The notes below the pieces were generated by a model, which did no database searches, was not told where the DNA came from, and worked only from the letters and a program-made list of their open reading frames with translations. From NCBI GenBank assembly GCA_902580765.1, contig CACHLW010000013.1, positions 1-32,669 on the forward strand: a stretch of DNA of 32,669 bases, read 5' to 3'. The translations under genes and the position numbers were made by a program. Positions 1 through 14,490 of the stretch are shown here, in pieces (the stretch's first letter is position 1; the number at the start of each line of letters is the position of its first letter). The DNA is from an uncultured Alphaproteobacteria bacterium. Lineage in GTDB: Bacteria; Pseudomonadota; Alphaproteobacteria; HIMB59; GCA-002718135.

Positions 1-975
1 AATCAAATACAACCATCAAGTATAGATTTGTCATTGAGTGAAGAATGTTATCAGGTAAAGCATAGTTTTTTATCATACAATTCGAAAGTAAGAGATAAAT
101 TAAAAGATCTAACTATTAGAAAAATAAATTTAAATAAAAAATTTATATTTAGAAAAAATAAAACTTATATTGTTAGACTTAACGAGTGTCTAAATTTACA
201 AAATAATATATTTGGGCACTGTAATCCTAAAAGTAGTACTGGAAGATTAGATATTTTTTGTAGATCTCTTGTTGACTATGCTGAAGAGTATGAAAAAATA
301 CCTAATAATTATAAAGGTGAAATTTTTTTAGAAGTTACATCAAGATCTTTTGATGTAGCACTAGAAAAAAATAATTGTTTAAATCAATTAAGACTGGTCA
401 GTAAAAAACATAATTATATGACCGATAGACAACTAATTAATATTAATAGAAGTCAAAAAATATCTAATCAAATTAAAAATAATATTGATAGTGGATTAAA
501 GTTATCAGTAGATTTAGCTGGATCAAAAATTATTGCTTATGTTGCAAAAAAAAATACTCCTATTCTAGATTTTTCTAGAATTAAATCACATAAAATCAAT
601 GATTTTTGGAATAAAATTTCAAACAAGCATAAAAAATTAATTATAGAAAAAAATAAGTTTTATATTTTAAAATCAAAAGAGAAAGTTATTATACCTCCAA
701 ATTTAGCTGGTGAAATGATACCATATGATACGGGTATTGGAGATTTCAGAGCACATTATGCAGGTTTTTTTGATCCAGGTTTTGGTTTGTCTAATGGCTC
801 ATATGCTGTATTAGAAGTCAAAACAAATGAAGTACCTTTTTTATTAGAAGATGGTCAAACTATAGCTAGAATTAAATATGAAAAGTTGAACAAAAATAGT
901 AATGTTGTATACGGAAAAAAAATTAAATCAAACTATCAAAATCAAGGTTTAAAATTAAGTAAACATTTTAAATAA
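1..975 (+). CDS. dcd: dCTP deaminase, long alphaproteobacterial two-domain form (5' end outside window)
   Basis: Deaminates dCTP to dUTP, feeding dTMP synthesis. The frame is open from base 1, and the residues before the first possible start (TTG at 28) read QPSSIDLSL, matching the QPxSxDL stretch near the start of this family, so the gene begins upstream and this copy is partial. Visible motifs are KSSTGRLDIF and a first-half fold, then PPNLAGEMIPYDTGIGDFR and HYAGFFDPGFG in the second half; the duplicated arrangement and these motifs fit the roughly 360-residue alphaproteobacterial deaminase rather than the short E. coli Dcd. It is followed one base later by aroQ, so it probably heads or joins the aroQ-accB-accC-aat operon. 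Family assignment is firm; activity is inferred. Confidence 0.9.
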   Translation, partial: NQIQPSSIDLSLSEECYQVKHSFLSYNSKVRDKLKDLTIRKINLNKKFIFRKNKTYIVRLNECLNLQNNIFGHCNPKSSTGRLDIFCRSLVDYAEEYEKIPNNYKGEIFLEVTSRSFDVALEKNNCLNQLRLVSKKHNYMTDRQLININRSQKISNQIKNNIDSGLKLSVDLAGSKIIAYVAKKNTPILDFSRIKSHKINDFWNKISNKHKKLIIEKNKFYILKSKEKVIIPPNLAGEMIPYDTGIGDFRAHYAGFFDPGFGLSNGSYAVLEVKTNEVPFLLEDGQTIARIKYEKLNKNSNVVYGKKIKSNYQNQGLKLSKHFK

Positions 976-3194: not shown

Positions 3195-3840
3195 AATAAT
3201 TGATTTAAACAGCTTAATAGAATTTTATAAAAAAGCTTACTTTCCGATGGCTGATAGTAAGCATTCTAAAGAAATAAAATTTTATAAACCCAAATTAAGA
3301 TTTATCATTCCAATTTCAAACTTTCATTATCCAAAGAAACTTTTTAGTGAGTTTAAAAAAACAAAATATAATTTTAAAATTGATCAAAATTTTGCAAAAG
3401 TTATAGAGTTATGCAAAGATATCAAAAGAAAAGATCAAGATACTTGGATTAATGAAATTATTTTGGATACATATATTGAATTACATAAAATTGGTAAATG
3501 TCACAGTGTAGAATGTTATGAAGACGAGAATCTAATTGGTGGTTTATATGGTTTACATATAGGATCATGTTTTTTTGGTGAAAGCATGTTTAGTTTAAAG
3601 ACCAATACAAGTAAGTTTTGTCTACTTTATTTATTGGCAATATTGAAAAAAAATAATTTTTCCATTTTAGATTCACAGTTTTTCAATCCTCATTTAGTTC
3701 AGTTTGGAGCATATGAGATAGAAACTGAAATTTATGAAAATAAACTAAAAGATAGTTTAGAGATTGAAAGTTTTTTTAGGGAAATTAATAATTTTCAAGA
3801 AGTCTTATCGTTACTACAATCAACTAACCAAAGATCATAA
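3187..3840 (+). CDS. aat: Leucyl/phenylalanyl-tRNA--protein transferase
   Basis: Adds Leu or Phe to N-terminal Lys/Arg of proteins, marking them for ClpS/ClpAP degradation. Family signatures are FPMADS near the N-terminus (about 20-25), TWINEI, CHSVECY, LIGGLYGLHIG, FFGESMFS and LDSQFFNPHLVQFGAYEI, in the expected order. The TTG start at 3187 overlaps accC by 8 bases; the first in-frame ATG is inside the conserved FPMADS motif, so the TTG start is preferred. The usual family Trp in the LFW/FYWW-like stretch appears as FYKPK, a mild deviation. The 3' end runs 46 bases into the convergent DUF2155 gene. The aat-DUF2155-NDUFA12 neighbourhood is typical of alphaproteobacteria. Confidence 0.93.
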   Translation: MSKIIDLNSLIEFYKKAYFPMADSKHSKEIKFYKPKLRFIIPISNFHYPKKLFSEFKKTKYNFKIDQNFAKVIELCKDIKRKDQDTWINEIILDTYIELHKIGKCHSVECYEDENLIGGLYGLHIGSCFFGESMFSLKTNTSKFCLLYLLAILKKNNFSILDSQFFNPHLVQFGAYEIETEIYENKLKDSLEIESFFREINNFQEVLSLLQSTNQRS

Positions 3841-4199
3841 ATAGGATTTTCTAATGGAGTAACATCGGGGGAAGAAGAAATCATCCAGCCTTTATAGATA
3901 TTAATATTTTCATTATTGATAGTATCGTAGACATCTAACAAAACATAATCTTCAGGAATTTCAGTTGGAGGAGTACTACCGCAATACAAAACTTCAATAT
4001 TTAAAGTTTCCCATGATATTTTTGAACTTACCAAAATATCTTTTGTAGAAACTTTATTAGTGGTTTTATTTAATAACTTTAAAGAAGCATATTTTTTTTC
4101 AATAGTCTCAGCAGAAACAGTTAATGGTAAGAGAAAAAAAAATGTTACTCTAATTAGGAGTCCAAGATTTATATTCTTCTTCTTTTTTTTCTGGGTCAT
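3795..4199 (-). CDS. DUF2155-family exported protein
   Basis: Function unknown. The C-terminal half carries the DUF2155 pattern: a Cys in LYCGSTPP, the central KGWMISSSPDVTPLENPIYD stretch and a closing LWLVDC. The N-terminus is a Lys-rich tract and a hydrophobic stretch ending TVSA, a likely Sec signal peptide, so the protein is probably periplasmic with a possible disulfide between the two conserved cysteines. I chose the ATG at 4199 (134 aa); a GTG at 4241 would add 14 residues and weaken the signal peptide. The start lies inside the NDUFA12 gene in another frame (50-base overlap), and the stop overlaps aat on the opposite strand. Confidence 0.85.
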   Translation of the reverse strand: MTQKKKKKNINLGLLIRVTFFFLLPLTVSAETIEKKYASLKLLNKTTNKVSTKDILVSSKISWETLNIEVLYCGSTPPTEIPEDYVLLDVYDTINNENINIYKGWMISSSPDVTPLENPIYDLWLVDCSNDKTS

Positions 4200-12012: not shown

Positions 12013-12396
12013 TTAATATTCCTCATAAGATTTTACCTCCACTAATTCAGATCCAAAGGTTTTATTTATATTATTTTTTACTTTTGCTCTTTCATCATTG
12101 GTAAAATAGACACTTCTAGCTAGATCAATAAATGTTTGATCAAATAATTTTTTTCTTTCACATTCTCTAATATCGTCTTCTATATTCCAAAGTTTAGAAT
12201 TAATATTTATCAAATTTTCTAAATAATTATTTATTTCTTCTTGTTGAACATAATTCATTAATATTTTTTGGAGAAAATCTAATTCTTTTTTGACATGATC
12301 AAGCTTAGTTTCATCAGTTATATTTTTCTGTTTAATAATTAATATAGAAATTTTATCTACAAGTTCACCAAGCGAAATAGGAGTATTAATAAGCAT
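12013..12396 (-). CDS. DUF6165-family protein
   Basis: Function unknown. The 127-residue protein opens with the family pattern PISLGELVDKISILIIK and is then mostly helical and charged (KLDHVKKELDFLQK, LWNIEDDIRECERK), ending in a FTNDERAKVKNNIN segment. No signal peptide or membrane segment is seen. Such proteins are often found near glycosyltransferase or surface-polysaccharide genes; here the partner is a sugar-phosphate isomerase-type cupin, to which it is coupled by a one-base TAATG overlap, so a role in sugar or envelope metabolism is a reasonable guess. Confidence 0.8.
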   Translation of the reverse strand: MLINTPISLGELVDKISILIIKQKNITDETKLDHVKKELDFLQKILMNYVQQEEINNYLENLININSKLWNIEDDIRECERKKLFDQTFIDLARSVYFTNDERAKVKNNINKTFGSELVEVKSYEEY

Positions 12397-14313: not shown

Positions 14314-14316
14314 TCT

Positions 14317-14344
14317 TTGACTTAATTTTTTATTTTTGTATACC
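14317..14344 (+). promoter_or_regulatory. Candidate sigma-70 promoter for the 27-aa peptide gene
   Basis: TTGACT (14317-14322) matches the -35 consensus at five of six positions; 16 bases later TATACC (14339-14344) matches -10 at four positions including the first four. A start site about 7 bases downstream would fall near 14351, only some five bases before the ATG at 14356, giving an almost leaderless transcript. Alternatively the same promoter drives the downstream transporter and fxsA. Confidence 0.4.
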
Positions 14345-14355
14345 GTATCTAGATT

Positions 14356-14439
14356 ATGGGATATCCAAAAAAACATAGAGGTAGACGCAAAAGAGGCTCT
14401 AAATATAGAAGAAATAAAAGGCGTCAAAAGAAGAAATAA
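14356..14439 (+). CDS. 27-aa highly basic peptide, possible tiny ribosome-associated protein
   Basis: An ATG-to-TAA frame with an in-frame TAG just upstream (14350), so it cannot be extended. It encodes a peptide with 8 Lys, 8 Arg and one His in 27 residues, beginning MGYPKKHRGRRKRG and ending RRQKKK, plus two Tyr and two Gly near the middle. Composition and size resemble very small ribosomal proteins such as bTHX, mycobacterial bS22 or bL37, but I see no alignment good enough to name one. It lies in the 177-bp gap between the LysR gene and the transporter, behind a promoter-like sequence and without a Shine-Dalgarno sequence. Such a run of Arg/Lys codons is not expected by chance in noncoding A/T-rich DNA. 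Function unknown. Confidence 0.65.
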   Translation: MGYPKKHRGRRKRGSKYRRNKRRQKKK

Positions 14440-14490
14440 TTAATACTTACAGCTTCTTTCTTAAATAATAATTCAGTCTATATATACTAA

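Follow-up and report, generated by a model that had tools for sequence, protein, structure and literature searches.

A conserved 27-residue basic protein of bacteria and phages, a candidate ribosome- or RNA-binding micro-protein

Described small basic proteins and the new family

The closest described systems are very small basic proteins of the ribosome. bTHX (30S ribosomal protein Thx) is a very basic protein of 27 residues that starts with MG. bS22 is basic, has 33 residues, contains a KKHR string and is lineage-specific; a paper on the Borrelia ribosome describes it as 61% Lys/Arg and as seated in an rRNA pocket (PMC10618245). bL37 and eL41 are basic proteins of 24-25 residues, and eL41 is one helix. 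Aquatic phages also carry a small ribosomal protein, bS21, in host-like form (PMC6375957). Here we describe a gene for a basic protein of 27 residues (MGYPKKHRGRRKRGSKYRRNKRRQKKK), of which 16 are Lys or Arg. It was found in the window, by which we mean the whole stretch of 32,669 nucleotides that was analysed. The protein shares length, MG start and strong basicity with bTHX and resembles bS22 without a profile match. Like bS21 it has host-like copies in phages, but the sequence differs. It has no sequence match to bL37 or eL41.

An earlier note on this DNA had compared the protein to bTHX, bS22, and bL37. The comparison holds for tiny size and basic composition, but not for descent from a named ribosomal family, as profiles, PDB searches and shuffled alignments all failed to connect them. 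Searches of Pfam, NCBIfam, PHROGs, and PADLOC gave no match to the 27-aa family, and an HMMER search of PDB returned no match at E values up to 10. The controls behaved as they should: Thx and bS22 were recognised by Pfam, and Thx, bS22, and bL37 were recognised by NCBIfam and PDB. The protein did not match the bTHX profiles PF17070 and TIGR04560 (Thermus Thx, 6.2e-18 and 8.1e-15), and the p value of the local alignment against shuffles was 0.25-0.97. When 60 genomes from the window's order were searched with PF17070, no match exceeded the cut-off. Identity with bS22/mS38/COX24_C was rejected in the same way (no match to PF08213 or NF047430; p = 0.42-0.82), while mycobacterial bS22 scored 4.2e-12 and 2.7e-17. 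For bL37, no match to NF047428 was found (p = 0.39-0.95); the control bL37 matched this profile at 6.5e-14, and Pfam had no usable bL37 match. No relation was found to eL41 (p = 0.07-0.93 over five members) or to phage bS21 (p = 0.15-0.62), and the alignment to the N-terminus of uL16 was no better than those of shuffles. An antiphage defence protein was also considered and rejected, since 0 of 3 peptides matched the PADLOC defence profiles, a search that had no positive control.

The string KKHRGRRK was not found in the literature searched, and searches on small or ribosomal proteins of SAR11 gave no report of the peptide among the matches listed. A 2009 study of the intergenic regions of P. 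ubique has a supplement that lists misannotated coding regions (PMC2704228), and the 27-aa gene may already be flagged there.

Gene, promoter and genomic neighbours

The coding sequence is on the forward strand at 14356-14439, from an ATG at 14356 to a TAA at 14437-14439, and an in-frame TAG lies upstream at 14350-14352. The frame, its composition and its upstream stop are therefore as the earlier note had given them. No other ATG ORF of 20-60 codons in the window reaches a K/R content of 16/27, and 100 dinucleotide-preserving shuffles of the window produced no ORF of this length that was as basic. The synonymous bias expected of a real coding sequence was found: pN/pS was 0.070 in the window's family (41 distinct coding sequences), where changes are mostly silent, 0.078 in the sister family (13), 0.067 in the order of genome G182 (6), and 0.105 in SAR11 (113), with pS near saturation in this comparison. 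In the window's family, mean pairwise identity was 0.93 at first, 0.98 at second, and 0.74 at third codon positions; the flanks, compared ungapped, gave 0.68 for the 60 nt before the gene and 0.44 after it. The ORF is short and the family libraries searched gave no match, as for a frame that arose by chance, but the presence of the gene across genomes, the low pN/pS and the shuffles without an equivalent ORF refute this explanation, to which we give practically no credence. The 27-aa frame is a real gene, and its protein is under purifying selection.

The gene is preceded on the same strand by a -35 element, TTGACT (14317-14322), and, after a spacer of 16, by a -10 element, TATACC (14339-14344), which is 11 nt before the ATG. 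Among the distinct upstream sequences of the window's family, all 36 contain TTGAC-15..19-TATA, in line with the promoter of its own that had been proposed for this gene. In all 36 sequences the -10 element ends only 10-14 nt ahead of the ATG. The transcript is therefore probably leaderless, or its leader spans very few bases. An automatic promoter scan omitted TTGACT-16-TATACC, because its rule requires T at position 6 of the -10 element, and listed a weaker site at 14440-14469 instead. As a control, we counted -10-like boxes at 4-16 nt ahead of long ORFs in the host loci and found them at 160 of 288. Since such boxes are common, the evidence for the promoter is the conserved pair of -35 and -10 elements and not the box alone. 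The frequencies in SAR11 copies (70/97) and in a third order (4/6) were not clearly over the control, and thus a conserved promoter is claimed for the window's family only. A Shine-Dalgarno core was found in 87 of 97 SAR11 copies and in none of the 36 sequences of the window's family. Its absence from this family is not unusual, because only 19 of the 288 long ORFs of the host loci have one.

In the sister family (loci L060-L073), the 15 bases before the ATG contain a GC-rich stretch after the -10 element (for example, CGCCGTC or GCCTCGCT). It contrasts with the 33% GC over 400 kb of genome G037 and recalls stringently controlled promoters. The idea of a stringent promoter with a GC-rich discriminator was dropped, as the parser gave four tRNAs in these 400 kb. 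An Rfam search of 140 kb of the same genome gave no match.

In the window, the gene lies between genes for a LysR regulator and an SbmA/BacA transporter (both by Pfam). LysR precedes it in 75 of 79 loci of the window's family, and SbmA directly follows it in 44 of 77; these and the other neighbour counts are of loci, not genomes, and some genomes were counted twice. With an SbmA/BacA importer as the next gene, the product might be a cationic antimicrobial or signalling peptide tied to that importer. We consider this very improbable: SbmA is the next gene in only a part of the loci of the window's own family and in 0/20, 0/4, and 0/123 loci of the other lineages, which largely refutes the link. 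Flanking genes elsewhere, identified by eye, include MFS and TPR, mnmA, and rpoH, and no translation gene was a consistent neighbour. Since gene order varies between lineages and the window's family has kept the promoter, the peptide gene looks like an independent transcription unit outside any peptide-import system. Elsewhere in the window, a protein of the unknown families DUF6165/DUF4254 (12013-12396) adjoins a cupin similar to mannose-6-phosphate isomerase.

Conservation and distribution in bacteria

The motif common to the host copies is [GAS]YP[KR]KHRGRRKxGSxxR. We compared 20 distinct host peptides from 78 loci. These loci came from profile or tblastn searches with no motif filter and were mostly the best-scoring ones of each search. 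The near-invariant core YPKKHRGRRKxGS (codons 3-15, 14362-14400, forward strand) is followed by a variable basic tail (codons 16-27, 14401-14436). Positions 3, 4, 6-12, 14, 15, and 18 were invariant, position 5 was K in 19 peptides and R in one, and position 2 was G, A, or S. Twenty additional loci, for the most part SAR11 matches of lower rank, all kept the core as well. Free copies are 27-40 aa long overall. Lys and Arg exchange freely in the tail of the 20 peptides; at core positions 5, 6, 8, 10, 11, and 12 there was one change in 120 K/R cells. We therefore argue for specific recognition rather than mere charge. In phage copies R8 is replaced by K in 11 of 37. AlphaFold2 modelled a 35-aa phage homologue as a single helix over residues 5-34 (mean pLDDT 85.9, pTM 0.44), a helix that includes the tail, and the peptide is probably a single helix.

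A 177-bp DNA query found the region at E values of 1.5e-20 or better in 30 of the 61 genomes searched, the window's own included. With the peptide as query, the gene was present in 85 of 110 genomes of the window's family. In the window's order it was found in 126 of 162 genomes, including 20 of the 20 that are at least 90% complete, and so the real tiny basic protein that had been predicted is kept in relatives. Twenty of the genomes without a match were listed and are 53-88% complete; 16 more were unlisted. Peptide identity is 96-100% within the family and 81% in the sister family, where the usual form is MGYPKKHRGRRKIGSRKRRAKRRAKKK. A class-wide profile search of 386 genomes gave 28 matches, of which 11 were real (six from the window's order, four from family f89, and one from f23) and 17 were chance.

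In the SAR11 order, 157 of 198 genomes have the gene, and 125 of the 149 that are at least 90% complete. Two SAR11 genomes that are both rated 99% complete (G553 and G558) gave no match. When the 25 genomes of family f160 are set aside, the count for the order is 157 of 173. Family f160 was found to have the gene in 0 of 53 genomes, although its sister family in the same order has the high count just given; three matches in f160 at E values of 0.24-0.30 were without the core and are chance. The third order, that of genome G182, has the gene in 6 of 6 genomes. The 27-aa gene is thus a core gene in the window's order, SAR11 and related lineages.

The earlier note had suspected a protein perhaps specific to one lineage. 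This part was overturned, since the gene is also present in SAR11, another order, a second phylum and phages. A Gemmatimonadales MAG carries MGYPKKHRGRRKIGSKRRRMRRKRRKGLRLRKK (pattern scan, among the matches listed), and members are sporadic in its phylum (6/298 genomes), several of them with a Shine-Dalgarno-like stretch by eye. Weak matches in 16 of 22 genomes (17 loci) of this phylum were chance. In a sample of 397 Pseudomonadota genomes, no member was found beyond the window's genome and G248, and the weak matches in 8 of 10 genomes (9 loci) were again chance. No core was found when the 46 weak-match loci were all read in six frames. The pattern scans of host and IMG/VR sequences demand most of the motif by construction; the loci were taken mostly from the best-ranked matches of each search, and one genome may give more than one locus.

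Phage copies, possible targets and evolution

Pattern scans of IMG/VR gave 26 contigs, and 37 in all with a looser pattern. All 37 copies are in frame: 32 start with ATG, two with GTG, and three are fused to a larger protein, so that 34 are free genes, in several phage types. When the 37 phage loci were compared with the host loci by BLASTN, all 320 matches fell within the peptide. Therefore, the phage loci are not disguised host contigs. In L297, L304, and L306, residues 2-25 are identical to one form of the window's family, and the DNA identity is 85%. A tblastn search with the 27-aa peptide against phages and with a 33-aa homologue against plasmids found no match; the low-complexity filter may mask such queries, so this negative does not argue for absence.

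In group A phages, the copy is inside a portal-GroES-capsid module (names by eye and from annotated relatives). The capsid proteins of Pelagibacter phages HTVC027P and HTVC023P share 65-67% identity with that of group A. The motif left no trace in the stretches read of the cultured relatives HTVC023P, HTVC027P, 023Pt_psg01, DSL-LC04, Pag-Yong1, and CRP-901. The head-gene module of group A type phages and their cultured relatives contains other short, very basic proteins (L293, 2617-2805 and 8534-8788; L320, at 2733 and 3569; L321, at 4026). The copies of groups B and C have an HNH nuclease, a DnaA-like protein, and an integrase as neighbours, all named by eye. In L311 it adjoins a DNA ligase, and in L295 it is near a dCMP-deaminase-like gene, as it is by eye in L308.

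The three fused copies (L329, L335, and L332) are all in a T4-like head-gene cluster, with the motif as the C-terminus of a protein of 380 aa, 374 aa, and a length cut by the locus end, respectively. PHROGs identified a head maturation protease and a major head protein in L329; the L335 counterparts are 94-95% identical to them, and the major head protein of L332 is 74% identical. L332 has a relative of the 380-aa protein too, but there the tail belongs to the protein encoded before that relative. The tail is thus on a different head-cluster protein than in L329, like a movable tag. Free and fused copies can be close: L308 2568-2657 (free) and L329 8203-9345 (fused), which come from one metagenome (3300005253), share 90% identity over 30 residues. 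Microcystis phage Mel-JY01 (L336) encodes a distant relative of the fusion-bearing 380-aa protein (31% identity over a quarter of the query), followed directly by bS21. This bS21 gene (3809-4036) is in a T4-like head-gene cluster, between the genes for the prohead protease and the capsid.

Glu-Gly stands directly ahead of YPKKH in all three fused copies, two of which are close relatives. T4-type maturation cleaves at Glu|Gly. The Glu-Gly sites of the fused copies do not seem to fit the strict T4 cleavage rule, so release of the peptide from the fused head-cluster proteins by such cleavage is speculation. Cleavage there would yield an N-terminus equal to that of the host peptide after Met removal.

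Two functions other than ribosome binding were considered. The first is a DNA-condensing protein, similar to protamine or to nucleoid proteins, that would act in the capsid of phages and on the chromosome of hosts. The group A copies in the portal-GroES-capsid module, the three tails on head-cluster proteins and the further short basic proteins of group A phages and their relatives would all fit. We nevertheless consider it unlikely, because exchanges between Lys and Arg are rare in the core, unlike in charge-only condensers, the copies of groups B and C are in a non-structural module, and the protein has just 27 aa in most hosts. The second is a specific RNA-binding peptide that acts outside the ribosome and is used by both host and phage. 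Its target might be RNA polymerase or the nascent transcript, as for arginine-rich antitermination peptides, or RNase P, tmRNA, or SRP RNA. The Arg-rich predicted helix with a fixed recognition segment is consistent with this possibility, as are the groups B and C copies near an HNH nuclease, a DnaA-like protein and an integrase and the L311 copy near DNA ligase. However, the loci point to no particular RNA and no Rfam family was found in the window. We regard this alternative as doubtful, although conceivable.

Our best guess is that the peptide is a new ribosome- or RNA-binding micro-protein that has been borrowed by phages. Nucleic-acid binding is suggested by the charge, and specificity by the fixed Lys/Arg pattern. 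The ribosome is proposed as the target because of the size, the composition, the conservation of the core, the carriage by phages, and the gene order of one phage, Mel-JY01. With moderate, about even, confidence we propose that this basic micro-protein, expressed from its own promoter, is most likely located in a specific rRNA pocket of the ribosome. We favour a ribosomal role because a core basic micro-protein of fixed sequence that is copied by phages resembles a small ribosomal protein. After loss of Met, the N-terminal segment [G/A/S]YPKKHRGRRKxGS would serve for recognition, and the peptide would be seated in a specific rRNA pocket, as are bTHX, bS22, bL37, or eL41. The host-like copies of phages, like phage bS21, may keep or bias translation during infection. 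Against a ribosomal role, the peptide has no sequence relation to any known ribosomal protein, and the head-gene module of group A and the three T4-like fusions fit a role in the virion or on DNA equally well. Moreover, the sporadic occurrence in the second phylum and the absence from all f160 genomes sampled indicate that ribosomes work without the peptide.

A bolder version, which seems to us rather improbable, is a new family of ribosome-modifying micro-proteins common to bacteria and phages, in which the head-cluster fusions would be cleaved at Glu|Gly and the freed peptide, packaged in the virion, would reach the ribosome as soon as infection starts. Within Pseudomonadota, the family may also be a shared derived character of SAR11 and HIMB59/AEGEAN-169 that unites them.

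SAR11, the HIMB59-like order, one further order and phages have the gene, and no member was found in the other Pseudomonadota sampled. Either one ancestral gain or transfer by phages could explain this distribution. The window's order is probably that of HIMB59/AEGEAN-169, whose placement with SAR11 is highly controversial (PMC10308909), and the 27-aa gene is a shared character with which this disputed placement can be tested. SAR11 is described as the group of marine microorganisms with the highest abundance (PMC10308909), and one of its core genes, shared with AEGEAN-169, seems to be outside every named family. The peptide is easy to miss, because it has 27 codons and yields no useful tryptic peptides. 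Should the peptide prove to be ribosomal, these bacteria would have a ribosome with an undescribed part, and phages would exploit that part.
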